DNA from: Argopecten irradians
Taxonomy: Eukaryota > Mollusca > Bivalvia > Pectinida > Pectinidae
Direction of reading: 5' to 3'
Assembly: GCF_041381155.1 (NCBI RefSeq)
Contig: NC_091145.1
Location: 41,009,697 to 41,073,696 of the forward strand
DNA length: 64,000 nt
Under the pieces are notes generated by a model. The model was not told the DNA's origin. It saw only the letters and a list, made by a program, of their open reading frames with translations, and did no database searches. The translations under genes were made by a program, and so were the position numbers. Below, piece after piece: positions 11,601 to 43,000 of this stretch; the stretch's first letter is position 1; every line of letters begins with the position of its first letter.

Positions 11601-14600
11601 GTGCAAAAATACGTGTACTGTGTTTTAAAGCAAAACTGTGCATTTTTCCTCCGTCTAAAACATCTTTTGGAAATAAGGGCGAAACTTTACATAAGTTGAC
11701 TGACCATCGATTGAAAACTTCTTCATAATAGATATGAATAAGTGAATGTACGTCGACTTGTACCACTAATATTGCTTGATAACTCTAACTGAGATGGCGT
11801 AGTAGTTCTGGACGAGGAACGGGAGATTTCTGCTTCGACGGTTTTCACGGAGTAAAGTCAGCAAATGATAATTAATTCCAAATGGACACCTACCTGTGAG
11901 CTGTATTTTCCGATCCAGAAGTGCACGTGACACCTACCTGTGAGCTGCATTTTCCGATCCAGAATTGCACGTAACACCTACCTGTGAGCTGTATTTTCCG
12001 ATCCAGAAGTGCACGTAACACCTACCTGTGAGCTGTATTTTCCGATCCAGAAGTGCACGTGACACCTACCTGTGAGCTGTATTTTCCGATCCAGAAGTGC
12101 ACGTGAAGAGCCAGTTCACCTTTCTTTTCTCTAGTCTGTTAACAGTGAATTTAAGGTAATTGTACAGGTATAATTGTTTTGACCATATTGCTGATTACAT
12201 CACCAGAATTTTTAGTAATGTTCGCATTATAAGATATTTGACATATCTATTTGAATGATCTGATCATAGGATAGTGTTGTTATTGATATATTGATATTTG
12301 ATTGGATATTCCTTTTATCGTTATTTAAACATCAGATAATACTGATGTATTAATGATCAAACGATTGATGTTATTGATATCTAAATGAAATCATATTAGG
12401 TGATTATTCTAATTAATTAGACCACTAATGAATTACGTCGAGGATGATGTAGGAATCTCCGCTGTAGAACTGTCCATACTGTTCCTTGGGCCAGTGGGTC
12501 ACTTTAAATTTCTGAAATAGATCGAGTGTACAATGTAAGGCATAATATTGATGATTCATTATAACAATAGAATGTGACATGATGTGCTTGATGTTTTGAC
12601 AACCCAAGTTATCATAAATAGAACTTGACATAAGTTATACACTAGATATACTACGTTGCCTTATCATGGGGAATCAGTCGTGTTTGTATGGCGATTGTCA
12701 TTGGTAAGGGAGAGGGCGGTTACCCCTCAGTTACATATAGTCCTCTACTCTTCTTAAGCTATCAGAACAAAACTGTTTAACCTCGTCAATTCGGATTTAT
12801 TATAGGATCATGTCTTCATTGGGAGTGTTTTGTTGTTCCGGGTCATAATAATTAATACAAGTACTGTTCAGATTCGCCTATTAGGATTATTCGAAATTTT
12901 ACTATGGTTTCCCCGACTTAAGTTGATAAGATTCGAGTGTATCTCACCGGTTTATATTATTTTTTGGAATATGAAGATGATAATTTTTATTTGATGTACA
13001 GACGTATAATATATACACATATCTCACAACAAAATGTACTGTCTAGAAATCCCGATCGCCATGAATGACGCGTCCTATACATGTACCTACCACAATCCTC
13101 CAGACTTGTAGGCCAGGCTCTTGTCCTGCACCTTCCCAAGCAGGCTCCGTCTCAGCAGCCGATTCTGAAAACGGAGACAGGAATGTTTTCAAAGTGCTTG
13201 AGTAATGAATATTTTAGAACTTTGTTCAATAAACATAAATATATTAAAAACTCGCCATACAAATCTAGGTCACATCCCCACTCGTCAAACAAATCTACGT
13301 CACAACCCCACTCGCCATACAAATCTACGTCACAACCCCACTCGTCATACAAATCTAGGTCACATCCCCACTCGCCATACAAATCTACGTCACAACCCCA
13401 CTCGTCATACAAATCTACGTCACAACCCCACTCGTCATACAAATCTAGGTCACATCCCCACTCGCCATACAAATCTAGGTCACATCCCCACTCGTCATAC
13501 AAATCTACGTCACAACCCCACTCGTCATACAAATCTAGGTCACATCCCCACTCGTCATACAAATCTACGTCACAACCCCACTCGTCAAACAAATCTAGGT
13601 CGCATCCCCACTCGTCATACAAATCTAGGTCATATCGACACCCACTATATAAATCTCATTAAGATCACCAAGTTTCTTTTGATATATCTATATTTTGTAC
13701 AGGTACTTCTGTGTTCTACCAATTTCTGAGAAGTTAGTCAAAATTTATGTCACATCGACACTCGCCATACAAATCTAGAGCAAAGCAACAACTGATATGT
13801 AAATATAGGTCACAAAGGTCACCACTGGACAAGTCTTACTCTATATTGCACATATAAGACAAGAATTTGGATTATTTTCCAGTGATGTCATGACGCGGAC
13901 CGTACACCTTCCATAGTGATGATCAACTTTCCCCGTTGACGCCCTATGCAGGTAATCTAACCGTTATCAGTTAAAACCTATCACAACAATTAATATCTTG
14001 AGGCCTTTGACGGGAAAACACCGAATGTATGAGATGTTTGAATGTAGACTATGAACTATAGAGACATCGGAGCGCTAGTCATGTAAGAATTCTTGTTGGT
14101 TATATTGTCGTTAAGGGCGTTACAAAGTGACGTTCACACGTTCTAAAATGATCTACGGTTTACATATAGGTATTCTTTCATAGAATAAAAAGTCATATGC
14201 ACTATATTTGTTAACAGCAATGGAAAAGTAAATTATAACTATTATTATTGTTGTAAAATAAGTCTAGAAATGGCGTGTGTTCATGAAACAGAATTTTGTA
14301 CGACGTTATTTAATAAATACATTAAACAAATATTACTTTTGACATCCCTTTTGTATTTGTTATTATTTAATAAACACATTAAACAAAGCTTATTATTGGC
14401 ATTCCTTTCCAGTTTGTATTCGTTGGATATTATTTAATAGTTATTTTTTATTTGTTTTCATAATACATCTGACTTTCTGATTGGCAGATCCTTTTTCTTC
14501 ATATACTATGAAGAAAAAATCTGAGAATGGCGCGAAAATCTGACGTTATCATGACGTCACAATAGAGACGTCGACGTTGCGTATTGATCTATAAAACATG

Positions 14601-15694
14601 ATTCATTGGAAAATCAATAGAATCATACGTTTGAACGTATTTTATATTATCAAATAGTCTGAAAAATTAATTATAAGCAATGATGTAACTATTTTTAACT
14701 TCATCGGGTAATGAATTAAATTTTGTTTGCAAACTTTTGTGAGAATGATTCACACAGTTTGCAAACAAAAATTCTTTCATAACCCGATGAAGTTAAAAAA
14801 TAGTGACATCAATGCTTAAATAAATACATTAAACAAATCTTACTTTTGACATTCCTTTCCAGTTTGTATTTGTTGGATATTATTAAATAAACACAGTGAA
14901 CAAATCTTACTTTTGACATCCCTTTCCAGTTTCGACCCGAACAGAGCCATGTTGGAGTCCTTCCAGTCATATTTCTTCGCTTTCCTTAAACCTATACAGA
15001 TTAATGGAAATTATTCACATAGTATGTATTTATTTACCATGATGAACAGGTATAAAGTATAAAACAAATACATACGAGTATACCATAAGGAATAGAAATT
15101 AAATAAAAATCAAAAAGTCTGTGTAAAATTTGTACATCTCTAATATGTAGAAACACATATCATTTATAAACAAAATCTAAGATGTATGTGATGATATGTA
15201 ATTATAATGTGTATTGAATTACACGCCGACATTAATCCTGGGCACCGGGCCCTAAGTTATTGATAATTTCTCAGAATTCTAATACTAGATTATCTCCCCC
15301 TAGTTTGAAACTTGGACATATCGCAGAGACAAAACTTATCAAGCCACAATTCGTGTTGTTTGATACTAAATGTAAGTTGGTATGTAACATAGACACGGGG
15401 AGCTAACTGCAGTTCCGTTACCAGATTTAAATGTCATTCCATTCATAAGCTAGGACGCCGATGAGATCTCGCCTATACCAACGAAATTATGGGTCGTCAT
15501 TCCAAACGACACGAGTAAAAACTGTGTTTGTTGTGTTAGATATCTATTTTTCACTCTTTTTTAATTTTATCTACCTTTCATCCAAACTCCACCCAAAAAT
15601 GTTAAAAGGCCTAGTGATGGATAAAACTCCATAGACGTACATACCCCATTCTTGGCAAAATTGTTAGGATCTATAATTAGAACTTACCTGCCAT
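5634..15694 (-). CDS. Gene A: gelsolin-like protein (severin/CapG size), complete
   Basis: Actin-filament severing or capping protein with three gelsolin repeats, expected in the cytoplasm. Coding exons in order: 15694-15688, 14991-14911, 13164-13091, 12511-12437, 12135-12070, 9936-9809, 9349-9241, 8949-8839, 8386-8306, 7601-7507, 6897-6819, 6274-6176, 5729-5634. All have AG/GT borders and compatible phases, giving 366 aa. G1 (about residues 50-145) holds [19 protein letters not shown] and [11 protein letters not shown]2 (160-245) holds [16 protein letters not shown] and [11 protein letters not shown]3 (276-366) holds VCDESGK, DVFLYHH and a final repeat ending FTLAMTA. A 31-residue acidic linker ([15 protein letters not shown]) separates G2 from G3. 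ATG was chosen because [20 protein letters not shown] is the usual start of molluscan gelsolin-like proteins; the frame stays open upstream within that exon. Structure matches gene B exon by exon. Confidence 0.93.
9951..10687. repeat. 30-bp minisatellite in gene A intron 5
   Basis: About 24 copies of a 30-bp unit (CATGGATGGCTTATATAATG plus TTCATAGACA) start only 14 bases beyond the acceptor of gene A exon 6. One or two decayed copies reappear at 11157-11215, beyond the foldback at 10989-11152, so the array was probably once longer and then interrupted. Confidence 0.95.
10989..11152. mobile_element. Foldback (long hairpin) MITE
   Basis: Two arms of about 75 bp are inverted copies of each other. 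The left starts AAGGAATAGATGTTTATTTT and the right ends with its complement near 11152. The arms have few mismatches around a small GC-rich loop (GGCTTCGCC). It is non-coding. It lies among decayed copies of the 30-bp array, consistent with insertion into it. Confidence 0.85.
11885..12104 (-). repeat. 44-bp array of duplicated splice donors, gene A exon 5
   Basis: Five copies at 11885, 11929, 11973, 12017 and 12061. Read on the minus strand, each unit carries the last 28 bases of exon 5 (ending AAATACAGCTCACAG), the donor GTAGGTG and the start of the intron. The rightmost copy is the true exon end at 12070; the other four lie just downstream of it in the transcript. Copies differ by one or two bases. 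Use of a downstream donor would add 44n bases and shift the frame unless n is a multiple of three. Confidence 0.95.
13251..13642. repeat. 30-bp minisatellite near gene A exon 3 acceptor
   Basis: About 13 copies of a 30-bp unit in two alternating variants (AAATCTAGGTCACATCCCCA and AAATCTACGTCACAACCCCA, each followed by CTCGTCATAC). The array sits in intron 2 of gene A, about 90 bases from the exon 3 acceptor. The period keeps frames open on both strands, giving spurious repetitive peptides. Confidence 0.95.
14300..14932 (-). repeat. Diverged array of duplicated donors, gene A exon 2, split by a MITE
   Basis: On the minus strand, exon 2 ends CTGGAAAGGGATGTCAAAA and is followed by GTAAGATTTG. 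Near-copies of the exon tail, donor and following intron recur downstream: one around 14840-14880 still with GTAAG, and two more decayed ones around 14325-14425. The copies are separated by the MITE at 14436-14820. Units are about 65-72 bp. This is the oldest-looking of the donor arrays. Confidence 0.8.
14436..14820. mobile_element. MITE with internal foldback
   Basis: The right half (about 14678-14820) is an inverted repeat built on ACTTCATCGGGTAATGA and TTTGTTTGCAAACTTTTGTG. The left half carries a second small hairpin (TTCTTCATA/TATGAAGAA). The same element, shorter and inverted, occurs at 43022-43305 and in its duplicate at 47568-47851, so it is a dispersed family. It is non-coding. Confidence 0.75.
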
Positions 15695-16141
15695 ACTGGT
15701 GATGCTTCCAAACAAATTCTGCGGATGTTAAAACTGGTCATAAAAGATAAGAAAATCGTTAATATACAAATAAAGTATGGTTGAAGTCGATTTAAACACA
15801 TTTTCCACACACACCCCTCCCATTATGTGTGAATGAAATATGACGTGTTGAAAGACTCTAACAATCATATATAACCGCTTGATTGTGATTGCATTTTTCC
15901 TTCAAATAGTTATACATTTTATATACAAAACAACAAGCATAAAAATATACAGAAACTCAAGATTCGCATCAGAATATAGTTTGGAATAAGAACATGTTAT
16001 TGTTCATGATAAAACATTTCTACATTATACAACATCGGTATAATTATATCATGAATACCCCGTGTTATATGGATTGTAAATAACATATATTTTTCTTTAT
16101 AAAGACGTTACATCAAGTTTTCTCACATTGATTGAAAATAC

Positions 16142-16352
16142 TTTGATCATGGCCGAGTGGTTAAGATGTCATGAAATTTTTCTACTGGGTCGCGAGTTTG
16201 AATCAAACGTGGGGCAGTTGCCAGGTACTGACGGTTGGTCGGTGGATTTTGTATGAGTATTCCTGCTTTTAAACCGGGTACGACCTTTAAATGACCTCGA
16301 TTGTTTATAGGATGTTGAACCTAATCAACCAATCAACAATTGTGTTATGCTT
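16142..16352 (+). mobile_element. tRNA-derived SINE
   Basis: A-box-like TGGCCGAGTGGTTAAG and B-box-like CGCGAGTTTGAATC lie 40-50 bases apart. They are followed by a body with GGGCAGTTGCCAG and TTTAAATGACCTCG, and a tail GTTGAACCTAATCAACCAAT made of short CAA-type repeats. This matches the general layout of a widespread bivalve SINE whose tail ends in AAACAAAC-like repeats (from memory). A diverged relative is at 3975-4165. Confidence 0.65.
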
Positions 16353-16439
16353 AACTAAGCATTATGGTGTATATAATAGTCAATAGCTGACCACCACTCT
16401 GTAAAGGTGCTACTCAGTAACCCCTTCCTTTTACATCGC

Positions 16440-16553
16440 CAATTAACTTAATTTGAAGCAAAGAATTCCCTCCCGATGCTTTACCCCTACTGATGCCAAT
16501 TAACTTAATTTGAAGCAAAGAATTCCCTCCCGATGCTTTACCCCTACTGATGC
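16440..16553. repeat. 57-bp perfect tandem duplication
   Basis: Two consecutive 57-bp copies beginning CAATTAACTTAATTTGAAGC are essentially identical. Recent local duplication; no gene is recognised here. Confidence 0.9.
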
Positions 16554-18018: not shown

Positions 18019-18650
18019 TTTTAGCTCGCCTATTCGAAGAATAGGGGGAGCTAATGTTTTCACACCGGCGTCGGCGTCAGCGTTGGCGTCCCATTTCACG
18101 TTAAAGTTTTTGAACAAGTTTCTGTTTCGTCAATTGTTTCAGCTTAAGTAATCATAAATGTTTATGATTTTATTTTCCTAATGTGTATGGATGCTGAACG
18201 TGATAACACAACAAATTTGTGGCCCTTTAGGTGTTTTTTGAGTCTGTTAATTTGTCATATTTCCATGTTAAAGTTTTTGAGCAAGTTTCTATTTTGTCTA
18301 TTGTTTAAGCTTAAGTCATCATAAATGTTTATGATTCTATTTTCCTAATGTGTATGGATGCTGAACGTGATAATACAACCAATTTGGGGCCCTTTAGGGG
18401 TTTTTTGAGTCTATTAATTTGTCATATTTCCATGTTAAAGTTTTTGAGCAAGTTTCTATTTTGTAAGCATAAGTCATCATAAACGTTTATGATTTTATTT
18501 TCCTATGTGTATGGATGCTGAACGTGATAATACAACCAATTTGGTTTTTTTTAGTCTGTTAATTTCTCATATTTCCATGTTTAAATAGTAAATACTTGAA
18601 CATCAACTTCCTCTTAATAGGCGAGCTTTGCTGTTCTCCAACAGCTCTTG
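18019..18650 (-). mobile_element. Helentron-like non-autonomous element
   Basis: On the minus strand it begins CAAGAGCTGTTGGAGAACAG, whose CTGTT/AACAG forms a hairpin. It ends in a hairpin built on TAGGCGAGC followed by TAAAA, read from 18019 on the plus strand as TTTTAGCTCGCCTATTCGAA. Inside are three core repeats of about 150 bp (GTTAAAGTTTTTGAGCAAG, ATGTGTATGGATGCTGAACG). Next to one end is a GC-rich tract (GGCGTCGGCGTCAGCG). No protein is encoded. Layout is that of pearl-type elements. Confidence 0.75.
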
Positions 18651-23971: not shown

Positions 23972-26341
23972 CTAATTCCGACGCTGTATTTTATCATTTA
24001 ATCTGATGACGGACGGGATAAAATCATGTAGATGAACGTGATCTCCAAGGCAAATGTTAATGCCCTGGGGGCCGGGCTCCTTACTCCCCACCCACTCCAG
24101 AAACGCTAGTGAAGCCCGGGGGACAACGCTTTCCTTTAGACTCCCACACAGGTGTGACATGATGGTTCCAGCCCCGGGGGTGAGGACACCTTGCCATACA
24201 TAGAAGTTCCCATTGTTGTTTCGATGTTTAGCATTGTAATTGTTTTCTAGGAAGTCTATTAACACACGAGGGTCACTGGTATTCGGCCAGGGGGAGGGGA
24301 TAGCAAATCCTGGCCAGAATTCCTTCATATTCGCACTCGTATCATCACTGTAAAATATCATAACACGCATCGGAGTCTCCCAAATGTTTTCAAGTGTCAT
24401 TCGCCAGGGGGACATATTAACATCGACGGGCATGATTAAAGCACCAAATAAGGTTTTCAAATCTGTCAGCAATTGTTTATGGCAAATAGCGTCCATATTG
24501 TGAAAATGATTAAAGTCTAAAAGTATAAACTCTTTCGGATTTTTGTCCAAGAAATCCTTGACTTCTTTTAAAGCTGTCAGAACCTTAGTTCCATACAGTC
24601 CATGCAGGAAATGCGTATCAGCTGTTTGCGGTTTGACGCAGACACGAAGGTCAAGGTATCGAATGCCGGCCTCAAGCTGCTGTCCGAGCGAAAGGTCCTG
24701 AGTAACTGACCACCGATTGACCACCGAGAGTCCAGCACCACAACAGAGAGACCCAAGGAAACTTACTAATCTCGGCTCGTCAACAGACACTCCGGCCGAC
24801 TTGTCCAGTGCATAGGCACCCGAGTCGTGGCTTCCTGCGGGAAGAAAATATTAGAGATCATCTCATGCGAAATATGTATGTTACCTCGTATCAAATATTT
24901 AATTTACTTCGAATACCACATTGAAAATAGACATATGTGTAAATATTATGTCAATGATAAATAAGCACTTACCTACGACATAAACCCACCGATGGTATAA
25001 CGATGGTTTTATTTGTAGTGTCAAGAAATTACTATTGTGATAGTAAACAAATATTATACAGTACCATTTAATTAACGTTTTCTTCGACACCTCTTCTGTT
25101 TATATTGAGGCAGTTCGTCGCTTAAGCCACAGTTGCCAGAAGAGAAATCTTTTCGTCAGGCATGGCACTTTGTTAACTTCTTTGTATAACACATGTATAA
25201 AGGTTATCGTCTAAATCTGACGGGAAAGATGGGTAATCATAAAGACCAATGCCAAATAAGTCTCCAGGTATCAGCCAAATGAGTATGAGATAAGAAACAA
25301 AAAGGCCAATAGCAGAACAACGTCGGGTACCACGTTTGATCTCACCACGCTTCGCTACACCTATCACAATAAGTGCAACATTGCATAATGGAATCCACCG
25401 TGGGTGTCCGATGATGATAACATTGAAATGAAACAAAACACACCAAAATATATCTACGATTCGACTAATAACAAAGAAGAGGAGAGAAACTAATGGAATT
25501 AGCCTTCCACACACGCACAGAACATCTGGGATTAGAGTGAATTCTACATTCTCTTCAAAGTAAGGAAACACAAGAAGTTCAATGGCGATATCCACACATA
25601 ATAACAAGAGACCTTCCATAGAGATGTTCCACCGCCGACGAATCAAAATTTGTTCTTTATCAAAAACAGGAGCAGACGAATTAAATTACTTTGCACCATT
25701 ACCGACATTTAAAGATTTGAGCTTCTTATTTTAATTAAAGTAAAAATATTACAACATAATTAATTGCGTTCCGAAAAATAATAATTGGCACTATGTTCTA
25801 TTAGGTACTAATTATGAACGTACAAAAAGCAAAATAATTATGATATATGCATTTTTTTAATAAGACACATATAAACACGATTGTACATTAATTATGGTTC
25901 AAATGATGGGTATCGTTTATGATGTCGGCGGTGGACCATCTTTAATCAGCATCCCAGATGTGATAAAGATTCTAACCCATTCCATGTGTCAGTCCTTGGC
26001 AGTTCGTTGTCTTGTTTAGATTTCTATGACGTGTCCTCCTCTGAAATCTGAACTCCACTAGGAACCCTTTATCAACACGGACATGGCCAAACTTTGAGGA
26101 GTGGTCAGTACTTACCAGGGATAGACGGACATGGCCAAACATTGAGGAGCGGTCAGTACTTACCAGGGATAGACGGACATGGCCAAACATTGAGGAGTGG
26201 TCAGTACTTACCAGGGATAGACGGACAAGGCCAAACATTGAGGAGTGGTCAGTGCTTACCAGGGATTGCCAGACAGGATAATGGTACCCGGGTGAGGTGA
26301 CCAGGCAGCTCACTCATCCAACTACGGTACCTGGTGTCCAT
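23972..26341 (-). CDS. PI-PLC X-domain protein (PLCXD type), two coding exons
   Basis: Exon 1 is 26341-26260 and exon 2 is 24834-23972, joined in phase 1, giving 314 aa, the usual PLCXD size. Exon 1 encodes MDTRYRSWMSELPG and LSCLAIPG. Exon 2 opens with SHDSGAYALDK. The X-domain signature GSHDSG supplies the first catalytic histidine (His30). RYLDLRV (86-92) and HGLYG with the second histidine (His105) follow, then EFILLDFNHFH. There is no Y, C2 or PH domain and no signal peptide, as usual for this family, which is related to bacterial-type phosphatidylinositol phospholipase C. Substrate is inferred. The donor of exon 1 is followed by a 48-bp array of extra donors. A possible second gene lies in the intron. 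Confidence 0.9.
25173..25646 (-). CDS. Hypothetical 157-aa multi-pass membrane protein inside PLCXD intron
   Basis: A single open frame of 157 codons within the PLCXD intron and on the same strand. It is strongly hydrophobic, with about four possible membrane segments (GLLLLCVDIAIELLVF, LIPLVSLLFFVISRIVDIF, WIPLCNVALIVIGVA, IGLFVSYLILIWLI), a basic KRGEIKRGTRR loop and an acidic C-terminal tail. No family is recognised. In a region where chance frames rarely pass 100 codons its length and organised hydrophobicity are notable, but no promoter or splicing evidence supports it. Confidence 0.4.
   Translation of the reverse strand: MIRRRWNISMEGLLLLCVDIAIELLVFPYFEENVEFTLIPDVLCVCGRLIPLVSLLFFVISRIVDIFWCVLFHFNVIIIGHPRWIPLCNVALIVIGVAKRGEIKRGTRRCSAIGLFVSYLILIWLIPGDLFGIGLYDYPSFPSDLDDNLYTCVIQRS
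26065..26262 (-). repeat. 48-bp array of duplicated splice donors, PLCXD exon 1
   Basis: Four donors at a 48-bp spacing, with exon edges at 26260 (the true one), 26212, 26164 and 26116. Each reads ATCCCTG then GTAAGTACTGACC on the minus strand. The exon-derived part in each unit is about 13 bases, with substitutions in the three downstream copies. The period is a multiple of three, so an incidental 113-residue frame runs through it. Confidence 0.92.
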
Positions 26342-27258: not shown

Positions 27259-27293
<35 letters not shown>

Positions 27294-27303
27294 CACGACG
27301 AGT

Positions 27304-27336
<33 letters not shown>

Positions 27337-28051
27337 GGAATCACGACGTCTTCAAAAAGTTTGTATGCTGTTCTTATATACTATTAATATTAGCTTTGTT
27401 GATATTGAAAACAGGGTTTTGAGATATTACCATAACTATAATGTTGATGTACAGTAATATTCTGGCATATGATTTGTTCATTACTTTACACAAAATGTAA
27501 TGTGTATAAATGAGAGTTTGAATTTCAACGTCTCGAGTATAGGGTTCCTGCTGAACTGTTTTGACCGTATAAGTTTATAATTGAAACCGAATGATCTCTT
27601 AACTTGTGGATGACATCGTATAAAGGATACTCACATATTCCTTGAGATTTTTTTTTTTTTTTTTTTTTGAGATAATTATTATTATTATTTTTTTGAGATA
27701 ATTGTTTTAGCGATTTCGCAGGACATTGTTATGGAATATTAAAGAATATTAGGATCATAAATATCAACATTTTTCTATGATCGTTTAATTTTTAAGCGCC
27801 GGTAATTTTTGGACAAGTAATTTGTAACTATTTTCAAATATATTAGCTTTGACAGTAATTTGTCGACTGTTAAAATGTATAATGTCTCTGTGTTTGTTTA
27901 TAAATGACTCCGACAATCTTGGTACATATAACCGGTACGGAGTCTGTGCAAATCGTGTATCACAGGAACTGGTGTCTTTCTGTGTCATTCCGGCGGAAAG
28001 GAAATCTTATTTCTTTAATTCTGATTTTCTGATCCACATTGTCTTCATCAG
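26342..28051. other. Intergenic region between PLCXD and gene B
   Basis: Divergent spacer between the minus-strand PLCXD gene and plus-strand gene B, so promoters of both probably lie here; no core promoter element can be assigned with confidence. It contains an interrupted (TA)n tract at about 27267-27334 and a T-rich tract at 27649-27668. Confidence 0.5.
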
Positions 28052-28091
28052 ACAAACATTCCGATCAACAACACCAACAACAGCTACAGCT

Positions 28092-31000
28092 ATGGAAGGT
28101 CTTTATCTGTTGATTCTGGGCTTTGATATTTTAACAATGGATTTGTGTGTGTTTATTTAAAAACTTACAAAATTTGACAATAGAGTCCTGCGCTTGTTGA
28201 TCATTTTTCATTTTTGCCTTATCTGAATGAGAAGATGATAATTCCACTTAATGAACCATAGTTATCGTCTAATTTTATAACCAAGCTAATATTACTTTAA
28301 CATTTCAGCAAAGTCAGCCCTCCGAAAGCAGAAGAAGTATGACTGGAAAGATTCCAATCTGGCCCTGTTTGGATCTAAACTAGAATACGAGCTAAAAAGT
28401 ACGTATGAATTTATATATAATATGTTAAATTGTTTTAATACACTTATCCCAGAAACGGATTTTAAACATCTTTTCCTTATGTAAATATGTTTTATAACCA
28501 ACATATTATATTAGATATGTATATGTGATTTATAACCTCTTAGTAAACAATAGATTGTTGTTTGTTGTTGTTGTTGTTATACAAAATATTGTCTAAATAG
28601 TCTGTTGTAGTTAAATAAAAGGGTTGTCAAAATAGTCTGTTGTTGTTATACAAAGTGTTGTCTAAATAGTCTGTTGTTGTTAATAAATAGGTTGTCAAAA
28701 AAGTCAAATAGTTGTTGTTGTTATACAAAGTGTTGTCAAAATAGTCTGTTGTTGTTATACAAAGTGTTGTCAAAATAGTCTGTTGTTGTTATACAAAGTG
28801 TTGCCAAATAATAGGTCTGTTGTTGTTATACAAAGTGTTGTCAAAATAGTCTGTTGTTGTTATACAAAGTGTTGTCAAAATAGTCTGTTGTTGTTATACA
28901 AAGTGTTGTCAAAATAGTCTGTTGTTGTTATACAAAGTGTTGTCAAAATAGTCTGTTGTTGTTATACAAAGTGTTGTCAAAATAGTCTGTTGTTGTTATA
29001 CAAAGTGTTGTCAAAATAGTCTGTTGTTGTTATACAAAGTGTTGTCAAAATAGTCTGTTGTTGTTATACAAAGTGTTGTCAAAATAGTCTGTTGTTGTTA
29101 TACAAAGTGTTGTCAAAATAGTCTGTTGTTGTTATACAAAGTGTTGTCAAAATAGTCTGTTGTTGTTATACAAAGTGTTGTCAAAATAGTCTGTTGTTGT
29201 TATACAAAGTGTTGCCAAATAATAGTCTGTTGTTGTTATACAAAGTGTTGCCAAAATAGTCTGTTGTTGTTTTACAAAGTGTTGTCAAAATAGTCTGTTG
29301 TTGTTATACAAAGTGTTGTCAAAATAGTCTGTTGCTGTTATACAAAGTGTTGTCAAAATAGTATGTTGTTGTTATACAAAGTGTTGCCAAAATAGTCTGT
29401 TGTTGTTATACAAAGTTTTGTCAAAATAGTCTGTTGTTGTTATACAAAGTGCTGTCAAAATAGTCTGTTGTTATTATACAAAGTGTTGTCAAAATAGTCT
29501 GTTGTTGTTATACAAAGTGTTGTCAAAATAGTCTGTTGTTGTTATACAAAGTGTTGTCAAAATAGTCTGTTGTTGTTATACAAAGTGTTGTCAAAATAGT
29601 CTGTTGTTGTTATACAAAGTGTTGTCAAAATAGTCTGTTGTTGTTATACAAAGTGTTGTCAAAATAGTCTGTTGTTGTTATACAAAGTGTTGTCAAAATA
29701 GTCTGTTGTTGTTATACAAAGTGTTGTCAAAATAGTCTGTTGTTGTTATACAAAGTGTTGTCAAAATAGTCTGTTGTTGTTATACAAAGTGTTGTCAAAA
29801 TAGTCTGTTGTTGTTATACAAAGTGTTGTCAAAATAGTCTGTTGATGTTATACAAAGTGTTGCCAAATAATAGTCTGTTGTTGTTATACAAAGTGTTGTC
29901 AAAATAGTCTGTTGTTGTTAAATAAAAGGGTTGTCAAAATAGTCTGTTGTTGTTATACAAAGTGTTGTCAAAATAGTCTGTTGTTGTTTATACAAAGTGT
30001 TGTCAAAATAGTCTGTTGTTGTTTATACAAAGTGTTGTCAAAATAGTCTGTTGTTGTTATACAAAGTGTTGTCAAAATAGTCTGTTGTTGTTATACAAAG
30101 TGTTGTCAAAATAGTCTGTTGTTGTTATACAAAGTGTTGTCAAAATAGTCTGTTGTTGTTATACAAAGTGTTGTCAAAATAGTCTGTTGTTGTTATACAA
30201 AGTGTTGTCAAAATAGTCTGTTGTTGTTATACAAAGTGTTGTCAAAATAGTCTGTTGTTGTTATACAAAGTGTTGTCAAAATAGTCTGTTGTTGTTATAC
30301 AAAGGTTGTCAAAATAGTCTGTTGTTGTTATACAAAGTGTTGTCAAAATAGTCTGTTGTTGTTATACAAAGCGTTGTCTAAATAGTCTGTTGTTGTTTAT
30401 ACAAAGCGTTGTCAAATAGTCTGTTGTTGTTATACAAAGTGTTGTCAAAATAGTCTGTTGTTGTTATACAAAGTGTTGTCAAAATAGTCTGTTGTTGATA
30501 TACAAAGTGTTGTCAAAATAGTCTGTTGTTGTTATACAAAGCGTTGTCAAAATAGTCTGTTGTTGTTATACAAAGTGTTGTCTAAATAGTCTGTTGTTGT
30601 TATACAAAGTGTTGTCTAAATAGTCTGTTGTTGTTATACAAAGTTGTTGTCAAATAGTTGTTGTTGTATACAAAGTGTTGTCAAATAGTCTGTTGTTGTT
30701 ATACAAAGTGTTGTCTAAATAGTCTGTTGTTGTTATAAAAGGTTGTCAAATATTGTTGTGTTATACAAAGGTTGTCAAAATAGTCTGTTGTTGTTATACA
30801 AAGTGTTGTCTAAATAGTCTGTTGTTGTTATACAAAGTGTTGTCAAAATAGTCTGTTGTTGTTATACAAAGCGTTGTCTAAATAGTCTGTTGTTGTTATA
30901 CAAAGTGTTGTCAAAATAGTCTGTTGTTGTTATACAAAGTGTTGTCAAAATAGTCTGTTGTTGTTATACAAAGCGTTGTCTAAATAGTCTGTTGTTGTTA

Positions 31001-34000
31001 TACAAAGTGTTGTCTAAATAGTCTGTTGTTGTTATACAAAGTGTTGTCAAAATAGTCTGTTGTTGTTAACAAAAGTGTTGTCAAAATAGTCTGTTGTTGT
31101 TATCAAAGAAAGTGTTGTCTAAATAGTCTGTTGTTGTTATACAAAGCGTTGTCTAAATAGTCTGTTGTTGTTATACAAAGTGTTGTCTAAATAGTCTGTT
31201 GTTGTTATACAAAGTGTTGTCAAAATAGTCTGTTGTTGTTATACAAAGTGTTGTCTAAATAGTCTGTTGTTGTTATACAAAGCGTTGTCTAAATAGTCTG
31301 TTGTTGTTATACAAAGTGTTGTCTAAATAGTCTGTTGTTGTTATACAAAGCGTTGTCTAAATAGTCTGTTGTTGTTATACAAAGTGTTGTCTAAATAGTC
31401 TGTTGTTGTTATACAAAGTGTTGTCTAAATAGTTTGTTGTTGTTATACAAAGCGTTGTCTAAATAGTCTGTTGTTGTTATACAAAGTGTTGTCTAAATAG
31501 TCTGTTGTTGTTATACAAAGTGTTGTCTAAATAGTCTGTTGTTGTTATACAAAGCGTTGTCTAAATAGTCTGTTGTTGATATACAAAGTGTTGTCTAAAT
31601 AGTCTGTTGTTGTTATACAAAGTGTTGTCAAAATAGTCTGTTGTTGTTATACAAAGCGTTGTCTAAATAGTCTGTTGTTGTTATACAAAGTGTTGTCAAA
31701 ATAGTCTGTTGTTGTTATACAAAGTGTTGTCAAAATAGTCTGTTGTTGTTATACAAAGCGTTGTCTAAATAGTCTGTTGTTGTTATACAAAGCGTTGTCT
31801 AAATAGTCTGTTGTTGTTATACAAAGTGTTGTCTAAATAGTCTGTTGTTGTTATACAAAGTGTTGTCTAAATAGTCTGTTGTTGTTATACAAAGTGTTGT
31901 CTAAATAGTCTGTTGTTGTTATACAAAGTGTTGTCTAAATAGTCTGTTGTTGTTATACAAAGTGTTGTCAAAATAGTCTGTTGTTGTTATACAAAGTGTT
32001 GTCAAAATAGTCTGTTGTTGTTATACAAAGTGTTGTCTAAATAGTCTGTTGTTGTTATACAAAGTGTTGTCTAAATAGTCTGTTGTTGTTATACAAAGTG
32101 TTGTCAAAATAGTCTGTTGTTGTTATACAAAGTGTTGTCAAATAGTCTGTTGTTGTTATATACAAAGTGTTGTCAAAATAGTCTGTTGTTGTTATACAAA
32201 GTGTTGTCAAAATAGTCTGTTGTTGTTATACAAAGGTTGTCTAAATAGTCTGTTGTTGTTATACAAAGTGTTGTCAAAATAGTCTGTTGTTGTTAAATAA
32301 AAGTGTTGTCAAAATAGTCTGTTGTTGTTATACAAAGCGTTGTCTAAATAGTCTGTTGTTGTTATACAAAGCGTTGTCTAAATAGTCTGTTGTTGTTGTT
32401 ATACAAAGCGTTGTCTAAATAGTCTGTTGTTGTTATACAAAGCGTTGTCAAAATAGTCTGTTGTTGTTATACAAAGTGTTGTCAAAATAGTCTGTTGTTG
32501 TTATACAAAGTGTTGTCAAAAATAGTCTGTTGTTGTTATACAAAGTGTTGTCAAAATAGTCTGTTGTTGTTAAATAAAAGTGTTGTCAAAATAGTTTGTT
32601 GTTGTTATACAAAGTGTTGTCTAAATAGTCTGTTGTTGTTATACAAAGTGTTGTCAAAATAGTCTGTTGTTGTTATACAAAGTGTTGTCAAAATAGTCTG
32701 TTGTTGTTATACAAAGCGTTGTCAAAATAGTCTGTTGTTGTTATACAAAGTGTTGTCAAAATAGTCTGTTGTTGTTATACAAAGTGTTGTCAAAATAGTC
32801 TGTTGTTGTTATACAAAGTGTTGTCAAAATAGTCTGTTGTTGTTATACAAAGTGTTGTCAAAATAGTCTGTTGTTGTTATACAAAGTGTTGTCTAAATAG
32901 TCTGTTGTTGTTATACAAAGCGTTGTCAAAATAGTCTGTTGTTGTTATACAAAGTGTTGTCAAAATAGTCTGTTGTTGTTATACAAAGTGTTGTCAAAAT
33001 AGTCTGTTGTTGTTATACAAAGTGTTGTCAAAATAGTCTGTTGTTGTTATACAAAGTGTTGTCTAAATAGTCTGTTGTTGTTATACAAAGTGTTGTCTAA
33101 ATAGTCTGTTGTTGTTATACAAAGTGTTGTCTAAATAGTCTGTTGTTGTTATACAAAGTGTTGTCATCAAAATAGTCTGTTGTTGTTATACAAAGTGTTG
33201 TCAAAATAGTTGTTGTTGTTATACAAAGTGTTGTCAAAATAGTGTTGTTGTTATATACAAAGTGTTGTCAAAATAGTCTGTTGTTGTTATACAAAGCGTT
33301 GTCTAAATAGTCTGTTGTTGTTATACAAAGTGTTGTCAAAATAGTCTGTTGTTGTTATACAAAGTGTTGTCTAAATAGTCTGTTGTTGTTATACAAAGTG
33401 TTGTCTAAATAGTCTGTTGTTGTTATACAAAGTGTTGTCTAAATAGTCTGTTGTTGTTATACAAAGTGTTGTCAAAATAGTCTGTTGTTGTTAAATAAAA
33501 GTGTTGTCAAAATAGTCTGTTGTTGTTATACAAAGCGTTGTCTAAATAGTTTGTTGTTGTTATACAAAGCGTTGTCTAAATAGTTTGTTGTTGTTATACA
33601 AAGTGTTGTCAAAATAGTTTGTTGTTGTTATACAAAGTGTTGTCTAAATAGTCTGTTGTTGTTATACAAAGTGTTGTCTAAATAGTCTGTTGTTGTTTAT
33701 ATACAAAGTGTTGTCAAAATAGTCTGTTGTTGTTATACAAAGTGTTGTCAAAATAGTCTGTTGTTGTTATACAAAGTGTTGTCTAAATAGTCTGTTGTTG
33801 TTATACAAAGGTTGTCATAGTTGTGTTATACAAAGTGTTGTTGTTGTTGTTATACAAAGCGTTGTCTAAATAGTCTGTTGTTGTTATACAAAGCGTTGTC
33901 TAAATAGTCTGTTGTTGTTATACAAAGTGTTGTCTAAATAGTCTGTTGTTGTTATACAAAGTGTTGTCTAAATAGTCTGTTGTTGTTATACAAAGCGTTG

Positions 34001-37000
34001 TCTAAATAGTCTGTTGTTGTTTATACAAAGTGTTGTCTAAATAGTCTGTTGTTGTTATACAAAGTGTTGTCTAAATAGTCTGTTGTTGTTATACAAAGTG
34101 TTGTCTAAATAGTTTGTTGTTGATATACAAAGTGTTGTCAAAATAGTCTGTTGTTGTTATACAAAGCGTTGTCTAAATACTCTGTTGTTGTTATACAAAG
34201 TGTTGTCTAAATAGTCTGTTGTTGTTATACAAAGTGTTGTTCTAAATAGTCTGTTGTTGTATACAAAGTTTGTCAAATATTGTGTTGTTATACAAAGTGT
34301 TGTCTAAATAGTCTGTTGTTGTTATACAAAGTGTTGTCTAAATAGTCTGTTGTTGTTATACAAAGCGTTGTCTAAATAGTCTGTTGTTGTTATACAAAGG
34401 TTGTCTAAATAGTCTGTTGTTGTTATACAAAGTGTTGTCTAAATAGTCTGTTGTTGTTATACAAAGTGTTGTCTAAATAGTCTGTTGTTGTTATACAAAG
34501 TGTTGTCTAAATAGTCTGTTGTTGTTATACAAAGTGTTGTCTAAATAGTCTGTTGTTGTTATACAAAGTGTTGTCAAATAGTCTGTTGTTTATATCAAAA
34601 GTTGTTGTTACAAATAGTCTGTTGTTGTTATACAAAGTGTTGTCAAAATAGTCTGTTGTTGTTAAATAAAAGTGTTGTCAAAATAGTCTGTGTTGTTGTT
34701 ATACAAAGCGTTGTCTAAATAGTTTGTTGTTGTTGTTTATACAAAGCGTTGTCAAAATAGTTTGTTGTTGTTATACAAAGTGTTGTCTAAATAGTCTGTT
34801 GTTGTTATACAAAGTGTTGTCAAAATAGTCTGTTGTTGTTAAATAAAAGTGTTGTCAAAATAGTCTGTTGTTGTTTATACAAAGCGTTGTCTAAATAGTT
34901 TGTTGTTGTTATACAAAGCGTTGTCTAAATAGTCTGTTGTTGTTATACAAAGTGTTGTCAAAATAGTCTGTTGTTGTTATACAAAGCGTTGTCTAAATAG
35001 TCTGTTGCTGTTATACAAAGTGTTGTCAAAATAGTCTGTTGCTGTTATACAAAGTGTTGTCAAAATAGTTTGTTGTTGTTATACAAAGCGTTGTCTAAAT
35101 AGTCTGTTGTTGTTATACAAAGCGTTGTCTAAATAGTCTGTTGTTGTTATACAAAGCGTTGTCTAAATAGTTTGTTGTTGTTATACAAAGCGTTGTCAAA
35201 ATAGTCTGTTGTTGTTATACAAAGTGTTGTCTAAATAGTCTGTTGTTGTTATACAAAGTGTTGTCTAAATAGTCTGTTGTTGTTATACAAAGTGTTGTCT
35301 AAATAGTCTGTTGTTGTTATACAAAGTGTTGTCTAAATAGTTTGTTGTTGTTATACAAAGCGTTGTCTAAATAGTCTGTTGTTGTTATACAAAGTGTTGT
35401 CTAAATAGTCTGCTGTTGTGTTTAGATATTGTTCATTACACCCTTTTTATTATGCCATTGGGGTCACAATAAGTGCACTTCTGTTGAACACAGGCCTAAC
35501 CTTTGGCCTGACGAACTGGTGGGTTTTTTTTCTGTGAAATATTTGATATTTTTTACAGAAGGATTGAGTTGATTCATTAATTGTTTGTAATCCTAACAAC
35601 TCTCTAAAGACAATATTCCACAGAACAAATCATTTGTTTCATATTTTTTCTTAATACAAATGATTTTTTTATTACAAATGCATTTTTCTTATACCATATG
35701 TTGTTTTTTCTGAATGCAAATTATGTTTTCTTACACCAAATTGGTTTTTTTCTGAATACAAATGATGTTTTCTTCATGCTATCGATTTTTTTTCTTGTAT
35801 AAGTTGTTGCATTACATTGTAGAGGATTCGGCAGAGCATGAGCTGGCGTGGCACAATGCGGGCAAGGAAGTCGGAAGGAAAATATGGCGGATCGTGGTAT
35901 ATCTTAACCTCACTTTTACATTGCTTTTCGTCTTATTTGTATTAAACTTAAATGATAAACACTTGAAACAAAAAAGGTTGCTTAGGTTCAGTAAAAGTCG
36001 TAAGTAAGGAAACAACTTTGATTGATTTAGAAAATTACTTTGATTAAAACACAGAAAATAATTTATATAAGCTTTAAGCTTGTTTTCCAATTCCCAAATA
36101 TTCTATAGTTGTATGTACATATATCGTGATATAAAAATAAACTGTTTATATCAAATAATGGATTGGACACAGATCTCACAATAAACCAATTGTTATAAAT
36201 GGCAATGGCATGCTTTAGGCTGATTTAATGGTGTCAAAATGTAGATAACATGTCTTATCATTATGTACCGGTAGGAATATATGGCGGGATTAGAAATTCA
36301 TATATTGACCATTACATCAACAGAATTTCCAAGTCACCGATTGGCCTGAGGAGGATTATGGAAAGTTTTATGAGGGTGATTCTTACATTGTCCTCGATGT
36401 ACGTATTTCACTAAAATAGGCCTTATTGTCAATATTATTTTTAATTCCTTGCGCAACAAATAAAGCTATCAATCATCCATCTTTACAAGTTGGAACCTTT
36501 ACAAATCACTGACTTTACCAAACAGTCTCACAGGTTGAAAGCGGGTTCATGTGGAGTTATTGTGACGTAGTCAGAAACGAAGAGGACTGCAAGATAGAAT
36601 ATGACAGATTAACAAAGTCATTTGTCTTTACTCTTTAATGACAAAGTCACGTGTCTTTACTCTTATCGTTTTTGACATGTATTTTGGTCTAATTCAAACT
36701 TTCTAGTCAACTCTTTAGTATCTGGGTCACAGGAACTGTGTACAACCTGTGGTGGGCCACACTAATTTCCGGAAGAATCAGTTTGCCGGACAACTACTTA
36801 GTAGGTTATTTACACTTCCTGTCAGAATGATATATCAAGGTCGAGTGCCTCTTAGTAAATTGTTTATATATCTACTTTGTCCTTTTCTTTGGTCAATATT
36901 TACCTGTTTAAACTATTTATCATCCAAACATTTTTATCCCATGTGCCAGTCAAACTTTTCAGGTTTCCATCATTACGATTTCCGTAACAAATGTTGACTA

Positions 37001-40000
37001 TGAAGTAAGAACTAAGACTCACGCACCTATGGCAAGCCGTTTGGGTTTTTACCTATTGAAATGAAGATATCTGTATTCAAAATAAAGATATCTGTATTTC
37101 TACAACTATTAGAGATATCTGTATTTGAATTAGAGATATCTGTATTTGAATTAGAGATATCTTTAATTGAATTAGAGATATCTGTATTTGAATTACAGAT
37201 ATCTTTAATTAAATAGAGATATCTGTATTTAAATTGCAGATATCTTTAATTAAATAGAGATATCTTCATTTTAAATAGAGATATCTTTAATTAAATAGAG
37301 ATATCTTCATTTCAATAGGTAAATACGCACCAGAGTTAGGAAGATGTAACTTGACGATGACAAAAGGAAAGTTTTACGGTCGATACCACATCTAATTATT
37401 TCTCGATTTCTTTTCCTATACTTCATAATATAAACTAGATGTTGGTGTGCATTAGTTATGTATATGATATATCGTTTTGCGAGGAGAAATGTAGAAAAAA
37501 AGTACCTTCAGTTTGCCATGAAAGGGTTACAGGGAAATTTATTAGAAAGAATGAATGCTTTCATATGAAAATTTAGTCCGCTAAACCTGCCTATGTTATT
37601 AGGCTATTTTATTTTTTTTGCCTAATATATATATTAGGCAAAAAAAAAAAAAAAAAAAAAAATTAAAAAACTCTAATAATATAGGCAGGTTTAGCGGACT
37701 AACGAAAATTGTGACATCAACTTCCAATTCGTATATCGCACATCGACGTTATGCTGCATTTGCGTTAAAATAATTCCAAAACTCGCAGATATTAGAAGAA
37801 TCGGTCTGTAAAGGTAGAGGGCATTTAATCACGTATCAAAGAACAAACGAACGCGCAATATTTCAAAATTATTATATAAGATAGATGAATGAATAAACAT
37901 GGTACTTTATATAAAACCAATTAATGAGAGGAACCGCAAGACAAGATAGATACATTTTCCTGGCAGTATTTTTGTAAGTTAATTTATTTAATAACATTAT
38001 TATGACAGAAATTCTTTTTCTGTTTTAGACCTACAAAAAATCAGGAAGTGATGCGCTCTACCATGACATACATTTTTGGATCGGAAAATACAGCACTCAG
38101 GTAAATACCGCACTCATATACTAATAATCTATCAACAGCACTTACATATATCTAGCACTCTGATCAACAACCCACCCATATTTAGGGACCACACTTACAT
38201 ATATCTAGCACTCTGATCAACAACCCACCCATATTTAGGGACCACACTTACATATATCTAGCACTCTGATCAACAACCCACCCATATTTAGGGACCACAC
38301 TTACATATATCTAGCACTCTGATCAACAACCCACCCATATTTAGGGACCACACTTTACGACCCACCCATATTTAGGGACCACACTTTACGACCCACCCAT
38401 ATTTAGGGACCACACTTTACGACCCACCCATATTTAGGGACCACACTTTACGACCCACCCATATTTAGGGACCACACTTTACGACCCACCCATATTTAGG
38501 GACCACACTTTACGACCCTAGGGAAAATCCCCTTGGATAATTAATTTGAATTATTTGTGATTATTCACAAATAATTAATTTCCCCAATTATAGCACATAG
38601 GATGTTATTTCTACAGGATGAGTATGGCACGGCCGCCTACAAGACAGTGGAGTTAGCCACCTACCTCGGGGGCAACCCCATCCAACACCGAGAGGTCCAG
38701 GAGCACGAGTCAAAGCAGTTCCTCAAGTACTTCGTCACCATCACGTACGTATACAATATAATGCCTTTTCAGTGACTGAGTTAACTCCCTTGAGGGAAGG
38801 GATCCATTGGTCAATTGTGAGCAAATCTGAAGTCACTGAAAAGTGTGTGCGCGCAAACATGACGTCAATCAATACTTACTCTATCATCAATTGCAAATAT
38901 TCAATTTCAGCAGAAACGATTATCATGGCATTATGACCGTGAGGATCAATTATCCTTTGTTCTGTAAAGAAAAATAGGGGCATCACCTCTCCAAACAAAT
39001 ACAAAAATGCGTTCAATGCTTTGGCTTTTCCGAACAGTTTTGTTTATTGTTTATTGTTACAGGCCTTCACAATAGACAACATTTTATTGAACGATATCAC
39101 ATTCTACTTTATGACTGAAAATGTTCTCTTGTTTCAAAAATGGAATCACAGATATCTACAGGGAGGTGCAGAAAGCGGTTTTCGGACGGTAAAGTCCGAG
39201 GAGTACACACCTCGCCTTCTACATTTCCATGGAGACAGACGAGGTGTTACGGTTAAGGAGGTAATGTCGGTGTGGGAGGGGTTTGGGATAACCCGAATTG
39301 CCTAACAATTTTATTTTAATCTTCAGTATTTCATTAGCTTCCTTCAGATTAGGTTTGGCAGGTTATTCTCTTGGCACAAAGGAAATGATATTGTCTCTGT
39401 TACCATATAAATCGTACTTACGGATTATGTGATAATACCAGCTAATTAAACGGGAATGGTCTCTCAACCCAATATGATACATCAGACAGTGGAAAACCTA
39501 CCTACAAATACCAGAATATGTTGTTAACAGATTCCAAGAGACAAGAGGAAGTTAGATTCTACGGACGTCCACATACTGGACCTCGGCTACATCATTTACC
39601 AGTGGAACGGCAAGACAAGTAACAAGGACGAGAGGGTCAAGGTGAGTAGATATTTACCAGTGGAACGGCAAGAAACGTAACAAGGGTGAGATGGTCAAGG
39701 AGAGTAGATATTTACCAGTGGAACGACGAGAAAAGTATCAATGACGAGAAGGTCAAGGTGAGTAGATATTTACCAGATGAACGACAAGACAAGTAACAAG
39801 GACGAGAGGGTCAAGGTGAGTAGATATTTACCAGTGGAACGACAAGACAAGTAACAAGGAGGAGAGGGTCAAGGTGAGTAGATATTTACCAATGGAACGA
39901 CAAGACAAGTAACAAGGAGGAGAGGGTCAAGGTGAGTAGATATTTACCTGTCAAACGACAAGACAAGTAACAAGGAGGAGAGGGTCAAGGTGAGTAGATA

Positions 40001-43000
40001 TTTACCAGTGGAACGACAAGAAAAGTAACAAGGACGAGAGGGTCAAGGTGAGTAGATATTTACCTGTCGAACGGCAAGACAGGTAACAAGGACGAGAGGG
40101 TCAAGGTGAGTAGATATTTACCTGTCGAACGACAAGAAAAGTAACAAGGACGAGAGGGTCTAGGTGAGTAGATATTTACTTATGGAACGGCAAGAAAAGT
40201 AAGAAGGACGAAAGGATCAAGTGTAGAACAGAAATTTTTTTTTTCTGCATCCACTAATGTACTCGTGTTCAAACCTGTCCTCAGGCTATGCAGTATATCA
40301 TAGACTTGAAGGAAGAACGCTGTGGGAAGGCTGTGTCAGAAGTCCTGGAAGAGGAATCCACTGAACCAGATGTAAGTATTTCTTTTATATTCATTACAGC
40401 TAGAACGCTTATAGAACATACCGTAACGTTTGTGTCATAGACAACGGAATTACAATCATGAATAAAATGTAACTGTAGAACGAGTTTGGTAATTTTGCTG
40501 AGTCCTAAAAGTTATTATCTTATTATAGATACCACATTTATCATAACTTCTTTAGCAATTCAATAAAAGCCCACTACCGTTCCCAGTACGTGGACAAAAG
40601 TACTTGGACACCTCATATTTTAACTATATATTTCAGGTATTTTTACTTTTTTTTTCTTTAAATTATCCTGATGAATTTTATCCAAATTTGGCATATGTAT
40701 AGTAAATTTTCTACGCGTTCAGCTCACAAAATGTTTAATATTCCGATGTTTCATTTTTAAAATATCATCTTAAACTTTATGACGTCATTTCTTCTTTATT
40801 CTAACAAAAATGGCAACGAAAGCGTATTGCTTGCTAATAAGACAAGGTTTTTAAAAAACATACACAAAGAGAAATTGTCGAAATATTATAAACATTATGA
40901 GTTGAAAGTGTAGACAATGCTCTGTAAGTATACCCAATTTGGTTGAAATTCGCCGATAGCAAAAATCAGGAAATTTAAAAGAAAAAAAAAAGTGAAAATG
41001 CATGAAATATCTAGTAACAATATGAGAATCGGAGTACTTTTGTCCACGTTCTGTAATTACCGCGTGGTAGTTAAATATCATTTAGACAGACAGTGAAATG
41101 AATTTTGAGTGTTAACAAAGATGACGAGGGAATCTGTCATTTGTGTGGTGTAATAACCCATCATATATTATATGCCATTGATATAAATTTTGAAATATAT
41201 ATTTTTAAGAAATTTCATTTTTGTTTCGGTGACGTAGTGAGCCTTTACTTGTACGATCCTTTATAAAACGGATGAGAATAAAGATATCGCATCACATTGA
41301 CAGTGACATTAAAACATAGCCTTCTACAGAGCAATTTATAAAATAAGGCTAACATCTTTCTGAACAACATAATTTCTAAATCTATGTATGTATGTGTGGA
41401 ATATTACTAAATCTATGTATGTATGTGTGTGTGGAGTATTACTAAATCTATGTATGTATGTGTGGAATATTACTAAATCTATGTATGTATGTGTGGAATA
41501 TTACTAAATCTATGTATGTATGTGTGGAATATTACTAAATCTATGTATGTATGTGTGTGTGGAGTATTACTAAATCTATGTATGTATGTGTGGAATATTA
41601 CTAAATCTATGTATGTATGTGTGGGATATTATTTAATCTATGTATGTATGTGTGGAATATTACTAAATCTATGTATGTATGTGTGGAATATTACTAAATC
41701 TATGTATGTATGTGTGGGATATTATTAAATTTATGTATGTATGTGTGGAATATTACTAAATCTATGTATGTATGTGTGGGATATTACTTAATCTATGTAT
41801 GTATGTGTGGGATATTACTAAATCTATGTATGTATGTGTGGAATATTACTAAATCTATGTATGTATGTGTGGAATATTACTAAATCTATGTATGTATGTG
41901 TGGGATATTACTAAATCTATGTATGTATGTGTGGAATATTACTAAATCTATGTATGTATGTGTGGAATATTGCTAAATCTATGTATGTATGTGTGGGATA
42001 TTTCTAAATCTATGTATGTATGTGTGGAATATTACTAAATCTATGTATGTATGTGTGGGATATTACTAAATCTATGTATGTATGTGTGGAATATTAAAGA
42101 TAATGGGGAAGCTATTCGTTATCTTGACAAACGCTGCACAGTTTAATGTTTCTCCTACTTAATTCAGCACTGTTTTACTGTTATACATTCATCGGGGCCA
42201 GAAGTAAGTTCTGATATATACAAATGTGCTATTTTTTGACAATTAAGAATTGTTTAGGCATTAACGAGATATTGTAATCGATCGGGTGACGATAAGTGAT
42301 TAAATCTGGCAATCGTTGTGAGCAGCATGACGTGTGATCCCTTCTGATTCATTTGTAAATTATTAACAAGCAAATGAGTGTTAAGATCTGTAAAGAGAAC
42401 GTGTGTCCACGTCTAGTTGATGTTCCTTTTGACAGCATTTGTTTTATGCGTGTCTGGACCAAGTGGCCGAAGACGATGAGGACCTATCTTACTTTGCACA
42501 GGATACAACAAAAGAACTCTACAGGTCAGTTATTAATAGTAATTAGAATAATTACAGGTCAGTTATTAATAGTAATTAGAATAATTACAGGTCAGTTATT
42601 AATAGTAATTAGAATAATACATTTGTTTTTTTTTTGAAACCCTAGTCAATACTAGCCGCAATATATACCCCTAGAGGTCCAGAATGCTACCCATGGCATC
42701 TATTACAAAGGCGTTACAGGCTCTTTCTTTTAGCTTGATCGGTTGAGTGTAAGACTAGTGATCCAGAAGTCCCGAGTTCGATACCTGGCGGAGGCAGTGA
42801 TTATTTTTATAAAGTCCTACACTTTTTTACACATATATAGGATCTTACATGAGTGTTCATTTCATGTGAGATTTTATGAAACAAGTCTTAAGAAGTTTTT
42901 AGTTTTGCGAGACTTGGCGAGTTTCATAAAATCTCATAGGAAATGATCACAAACTTTAGATACTTTTTGCACGGGCGAAATCACTGGATATCAGGTGGAT

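Follow-up and report, generated by a model that had tools for sequence, protein, structure and literature searches.

Tandem arrays across splice donors of gelsolin-family and PLCXD-like genes in a 64-kb window of the Argopecten irradians genome

Introduction

Canestro et al. are said to have described the mirages of amphioxus Adh3 in 2002, Turri et al. reportedly described the human IFI6 (6-16) minisatellite with its multiple splice donors in 1995, and introns from tandem arrays are reportedly the subject of work by Zhuo et al. in 2007. Here we analyse a stretch of 64,000 nucleotides from the bivalve Argopecten irradians (assembly GCF_041381155.1, contig NC_091145.1, positions 41,009,697 to 41,073,696 of the forward strand), called the window below, in which five splice donors in three genes are spanned by tandem arrays. 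Such arrays resemble a structure that has been named in amphioxus.

The accessible part of PMC3087553 describes minisatellite-like repeats of exon-intron borders, termed mirages, in two amphioxus globin genes, and cites Adh3, with units of 10-72 bp, and other loci. According to this part, mirages seem not to disturb regular splicing, and many copies carry AG/GT signals. Their central copies are homogenised, their lengths are unstable, either end of an intron can be affected, and they have been proposed as a source of introns (PMC3087553). Mirages also occur in amphioxus PGBD5 and troponin C (TnC), as stated in the available text of PMC3902484.

Related processes have been described in other organisms, again as far as the accessible sections of the papers go. 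In human IFI6, two repeat units further downstream serve as donors, which gives three mRNAs (PMC4526556). In human segmental duplications, the exon-intron boundaries of duplicated genes carry minisatellites that can form introns, and transcripts support the new introns (PMC2812944). Intron gain has been attributed to tandem duplication of AGGT segments, the Rogers model (PMC2891723), and in a potato case such a duplication crosses an existing intron-exon border (PMC4974935). The earthworm metallothionein gene contains intronic minisatellites, and the accessible portion of that paper does not mention a donor-spanning array (PMC12783039). Our literature search found no paper on donor-spanning arrays in bivalves, which is a weak negative, as the search was mostly not bivalve-directed and was short on subscription papers.

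Results

Three gelsolin-family genes (A, B and C) and one PLCXD-like gene were rebuilt from the sequence of the window, with 26 donors and 28 acceptors modelled, GT/AG throughout. For every splice site, an anchor test sought a same-strand copy of the junction within 800 bp. Local copies spanned five donors, those of gene A exon 2 (score 38), gene A exon 5 (142), exon 1 of the PLCXD-like gene (113), gene B exon 8 (117) and gene B exon 10 (66). At all five, a minisatellite-like repeat lies over the exon-intron boundary, its units hold the 3' end of the exon, the GT donor and some intron, the authentic exon is intact and the extra copies run into the intron (Table 1). Laying the copies out in register gave four clean arrays across a donor and one degenerate array, at gene A exon 2. 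An earlier note on this stretch had named these five donors, with about four copies at gene A exon 2 and units of 5 x 44, 4 x 48, about 11 x 58 and 3 x 33 bp at the others, had taken the arrays for independent events and had placed a sixth array just inside an intron of gene C; all of this was borne out.

The degenerate array consists of the exon's own copy and copies at 14865-14816, 14415-14350 and 14349-14295. An insertion of up to 400 bp, within about 14815-14416, parts the second and third copies. Tandem Repeats Finder (TRF) reports the last two copies alone (14306-14417); that the array reaches the donor is seen in the anchor test and by alignment. By eye, the insertion (about 14416-14815) has a fold-back look, and related sequence lies near 43030-43225 and 47570-47770.

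An independent origin of the five arrays is supported, because their units differ in length, come from different exons and differ in age. The copies of the gene B exon 10 array are identical, those of the other four arrays have diverged, and at gene A exon 2 enough time has passed for an insertion to enter the array. A single transposed element as the source of all arrays was ruled out, since each unit contains its local exon end. By TRF coordinates, the bases beyond whole units number 2 (gene A exon 5), -2 (PLCXD-like exon 1) and 0 (gene B exon 10), and there is therefore little or no microhomology at the joints. In the identity matrix of the gene B exon 8 array, copies 3-9 share 52-57 of 58 bases with one another and are on the whole less like the edge copies 1, 2 and 10. 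Homogenisation of central copies is suggested in this array; the others have too few or too similar copies.

Table 1. Donor-spanning arrays, two further arrays near donors, and the gene models of the window
Feature	Position	Strand	Description
Gene A exon 2 (14991-14911) and degenerate array	14295-14991	minus	anchor test, alignment; donor spanned
Gene A exon 5 (12135-12070) and array 11885-12106	11885-12135	minus	44 bp x 5; 37 exonic bases per unit
PLCXD-like exon 1 (coding part 26341-26260) and array 26077-26266	26077-26341	minus	48 bp x 4; about 7 exonic bases per unit
Gene B exon 8 (39531-39641) and array 39594-40221	39531-40221	plus	58 bp x 10.8 (about eleven copies); 48 exonic bases per unit
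Gene B exon 10 (42436-42524) and array 42520-42618	42436-42618	plus	33 bp x 3; 5 exonic bases (TACAG) per unit
Second copy of gene B exon 10 array	47065-47163	plus	inside 4.5-kb tandem duplication; not an independent array, counted once
Gene C exon 11 (63526-63448) and 29-bp x 39 array (TRF 62309-63444)	62309-63526	minus	array abuts donor
Gene B exon 5 (38029-38100) and 53-bp x 4 array (38139-38355)	38029-38355	plus	starts 38 bp after donor
Gene A	15694-5634	minus	13 exons; open 366-residue protein; three gelsolin stretches
Gene B	28309-44658	plus	model covers exons 2-13; open 369-residue protein; three gelsolin stretches
Gene C	63526-59960	minus	last three exons; one gelsolin stretch
PLCXD-like gene	26341-23972	minus	two coding exons

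With the first donor used, the coding sequence is open in gene A, in gene B from exon 2 onward, in the last three exons of gene C and in the PLCXD-like gene. Gene A matched the structures of villin, gelsolin, fragmin and CapG. The PLCXD-like protein matched bacterial PI-PLC structures (best E 2.6e-08), which is weaker than the gelsolin-family assignments, and its PI-PLC-X match falls below the curated cut-off, so the gene is called PLCXD-like. Judged from their sequence, the array-bearing exons are real, because joining them gives open coding sequences whose products fit structures of the gelsolin family and, less strongly, of PI-PLC. The paralogues A and B have 11 common internal exons (2-12), six of them equal in length and five differing by 3-9 nt. 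A search of the window for tRNA and Rfam families found neither a tRNA nor any Rfam family at the gathering threshold.

Outside the five arrays, the gene C exon 11 donor reached an anchor score of 70, with 4 of 8 core bases matching, and the remaining 20 donors scored at most 8, with no local copy spanning the junction. None of the 28 acceptors was spanned (all scores at most 7). In one mononucleotide shuffle of the window, the maximum score at 300 positions was 12. In intron sequence outside arrays, 23 of 1221 sampled positions scored at least 16, in five clusters, three of which lie within 20 bp of a known array; this control keeps clear of splice sites by 20-40 bp and of arrays by 8 bp. The shuffle and the intron control gave few or no local copies, and the donor result is therefore not just a matter of a closer look at donors. 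Random positions of the window, arrays included, passed the same test in 36% of 600 cases.

The earlier note had judged five such arrays far above chance, which held against one null and not against another. Arrays make up 14,072 of the 32,323 gene-body bases (44%, or 28% without the 6.85-kb array described below), and 5 of 26 donors is no excess against this coverage or against the 36% of random positions. Under a founding-unit null, in which each array is represented by one unit placed at random, 0.64-0.91 donor-spanning arrays were expected and 5 were observed (P(>=5) = 0.0002-0.0016, depending on the placement rule; P = 0.003-0.011 without the degenerate gene A exon 2 array). Donors exceeded acceptors (5/26 vs 0/28, Fisher P = 0.021; without exon 2, 4/26 vs 0/28, P = 0.047) and the shuffle gave no comparable score, but the acceptor zero on its own says little, because about 0.7 spanned acceptors are expected under the founding-unit null and zero has a probability of about 0.5. 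Moreover, the 5' edge lies at a donor or no more than 50 bp from one in 7 of 15 intron arrays, against 2.2 expected (P 0.003; P 0.056 when the two borderline arrays, those of gene B intron 5 and gene C intron 11, are not counted). All P values are nominal, with n = 5, one window and a pattern picked after it had been seen.

The founding-unit test rests on 16 arrays in gene bodies, or 15 if the stop-codon repeat is set aside, and the edge-distance test and second placement test used 15. These counts take in no redundant TRF rows, AT or poly-T runs, very short units or intergenic arrays. For gene A exon 2, the array went into the test together with its insertion, and collapsing it to one unit therefore took the insertion out of the length as well. 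A further placement test adds a 26-bp array at 27662, outside the modelled introns, and a two-copy repeat near 36.6 kb, which the control on intron positions had brought up and whose coordinates and unit were set by eye. The stop-codon repeat is a 32-bp two-copy repeat over the gene B stop codon (44647-44710), another duplication across the 3' edge of a coding sequence.

Two more arrays may once have been donor arrays. The gene C array starts inside the donor consensus, at about intron base 4, and in its best copy the six exonic bases before the donor match and four bases at the donor differ. In a likeness survey, each of 15 arrays was set against both splice sites of its own intron, donor and acceptor, giving 30 comparisons against random windows. 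The five known arrays and those of gene B intron 5 (P 0.006, as in a separate run) and gene C intron 11 (P 0.019; 0.0215 in the separate run) resembled the adjoining donor region at P < 0.02 with the junction covered, the likeness in gene B intron 5 being weak, and the gene B intron 9 array reached P 0.044. No acceptor comparison that covered the junction had P < 0.28. The 30-bp array of gene A intron 5 (9947-10684) comes to within 10 bp of the exon 6 acceptor but does not span it; it resembles the adjacent sequence (P 0.012), with the junction not covered. In the gene B intron 5 array and the gene C intron 11 array, the copies that were aligned now lack the donor. These two are possibly decayed donor-derived arrays, which is suggestive only because 30 comparisons were made.

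GT is retained in 19 of the 22 extra copies of the five arrays, including 8 of 10 at gene B exon 8. Predicted use of the 19 GT-bearing donors never keeps the reading frame intact and in 17 cases adds an in-frame stop; the nearest extra donors of gene A exon 5 (+44 nt) and gene A exon 2 (+67 nt) both shift the frame. The donor columns were compared with the rest of the unit in four arrays, leaving out gene A exon 2, all first copies and the last copy of gene B exon 8. Mismatches per base were 0.025 vs 0.063 in gene B exon 8 copies 1-9 (31% of same-size column windows were as clean), 0 vs 0.029 in gene A exon 5 (41%) and 0 vs 0.017 in PLCXD-like exon 1 (62%), and the gene B exon 10 copies show no variation for this test. 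Thus, no significant extra conservation of the donor columns was found in these arrays, at low power. In the extra copies of gene B exon 8, a 39-nt in-frame piece ends at the donor and is open in 9 of 10. We do not build on this piece, since the AG before it is kept in just 5 of 10.

By a position weight matrix (PWM) derived from the window's own 26 donors, the array donors rank 8, 11, 13, 21 and 23 of 26 in strength. With these ranks, the idea that arrays mark the weakest donors was rejected.

The surroundings are rich in repeats, with 58 overlapping TRF rows in 64 kb. Most of gene B intron 2 is occupied by a 6.85-kb array (28569-35419) of about 201 copies of a 34-bp unit. A 4.5-kb tandem duplication with 99.8% identity (41936-46484 and 46476-51030) copies gene B exons 10-13; its left end falls within a 31-bp array at 41372-42096, which suggests array-copy exchange or a haplotype artefact. 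Also present are a 155-bp satellite, with about 16 copies, and a 161-bp family of tandem repeats dispersed in both orientations, at 55728-58278, 45223-46025, 49769-50571, 55069-55627 and 58403-58806. The dispersed repeats would seem to be of molluscan type. An exact search of bacterial and archaeal genome contigs and viral contigs with the 161-bp family pattern gave no match.

Discussion

Overall, our data suggest that the arrays are probably mirage-type minisatellites, tolerated since the exon-proximal copy stays intact. A short local tandem duplication would happen to take in the end of an exon, its GT donor and the start of the intron, and the duplicated segment would then grow through tandem-repeat turnover. 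The exon-proximal copy would still serve as exon end and donor, the spliceosome would mostly pick this first donor, and the added copies would become intron and be close to neutral. Arrays may thus persist because the first copy still works. A duplication across an acceptor would place a new AG ahead of the real one, which could explain why no acceptor is spanned, although chance alone would give zero in about half of cases.

Several observations weigh against this explanation. Pure tolerance does not predict the nominal excess of donors over intron interiors. Equal competing donors often favour the intron-proximal one in vitro. By our PWM, most extra donors score as high as the first, and those downstream in the PLCXD-like gene outscore it (10.7 vs 7.7); neutrality is therefore not self-evident. 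Furthermore, the donor columns lean towards constraint in three of the four arrays, far from significance.

It has been suggested in the earlier note that exon-intron borders are hot spots of tandem duplication. In this case the 3' ends of exons would be preferred start sites, for example owing to breaks during transcription or to some property of the border sequence, and tolerance would only filter what arises, which makes the idea compatible with tolerated mirages. The founding-unit excess and the clustering of array edges near donors both point in this direction, two of the seven arrays concerned, those of gene B intron 5 and gene C intron 11, are borderline cases with a likeness to their donor region, and the few local copies in the sampled intron positions indicate that the interior is not full of missed arrays. 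However, the window was chosen for this pattern, the tests weaken without exon 2 or without the borderline arrays, and the coverage null gives no excess. The joints of the three readable arrays carry at most 2 bases of microhomology. We therefore regard a donor hot spot as possible but rather unlikely, and it is not established from one window: the nominal founding-unit support stands, but n = 5, the choice was post hoc and the acceptor zero says little. A wider claim would be that, base for base, donors in this genome give rise to minisatellites several times as often as intron interiors do, that acceptors do not, and that many ordinary intronic minisatellites, those of gene C intron 11 and gene B intron 5 among them, began long ago as donor arrays whose extra donors have since decayed. 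This seems to us doubtful.

Alternatively, several arrays may just happen to fall on donors in a region packed with minisatellites. The density of TRF rows, the share of gene-body bases in arrays (44%) and the share of random positions with a local copy (36%) would all fit. On the other side, the length of an array is mostly growth after its founding, and five arrays are improbable when counted by units. Chance placement is, in our view, an explanation of rather low probability.

It appears very improbable that the extra donors are useful, which the earlier note had considered. They could act, for instance, as a splicing switch that sends part of the transcript to decay or as added U1 binding sites. 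The retention of GT in most extra copies and the stop or frameshift that follows from every use are what a decay switch would need. The downstream donors of the PLCXD-like gene score above the first, and array donors are absent from the seven strongest. Nevertheless, the donor columns lack significant conservation, several weak donors (ranks 22, 24, 25 and 26) have no array, and the paralogues A and B have no clear array in common at any junction. With 0 of 19 extra donors keeping the frame, a contribution to protein variety was ruled out, and demonstrable selection for the extra donors was rejected, as their columns are not significantly conserved (at low power). Least probable of all is an assembly artefact, by collapsed or expanded repeats or haplotype duplication: the 4.5-kb duplication with its second exon 10 array could be a haplotype artefact and the exon 10 copies are identical, but four of the five arrays have diverged, one with an insertion between copies, which misassembly would not readily produce.

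The arrays also give no sign of the proposed route from duplicated AGGT segments to new introns. The four gelsolin arrays, to which this test applies, lie at introns common to the paralogues A and B; the PLCXD-like gene has no paralogue in the window.

In the available text, amphioxus mirages are described gene by gene. Five arrays in 64 kb, all at donors, suggest that this genome would allow a direct count of the raw material for intron gain and growth. If donors do seed minisatellites, the splice signal or transcription would be tied to a local mutation process. If the hot spot is false, the arrays still show how freely donors duplicate when the first copy is kept.

Among the known systems, human IFI6 is similar in that a minisatellite provides several donors after one exon. 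In contrast to IFI6, where downstream donors are reported to be used, the extra donors of the window are predicted from sequence and none of them keeps the frame. The repeats in human segmental duplications are likewise border minisatellites with the potential to alter splicing, but transcripts support new introns there, whereas the array-bearing gelsolin introns of the window are common to paralogues. Some of the duplicated segments in the window contain AGGT, as in the described cases of intron gain, although no new intron is evident here.

The closest likeness is to the amphioxus mirages. Unlike these, which include cases at either end of introns, the window arrays lie at donors only (0 of 28 acceptors, where about 0.7 would be expected). 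They are also unusually dense, with three genes carrying five of them in 64 kb. In both cases, minisatellites span the border, many but not all copies carry splice signals, and the authentic exon is kept. Central copies are homogenised in amphioxus, as the identity matrix suggests for gene B exon 8, and the 10-72 bp unit range of Adh3 includes the units found here. By their anatomy, the arrays of the window would thus belong to the mirage kind, a type of structure that has already been named.

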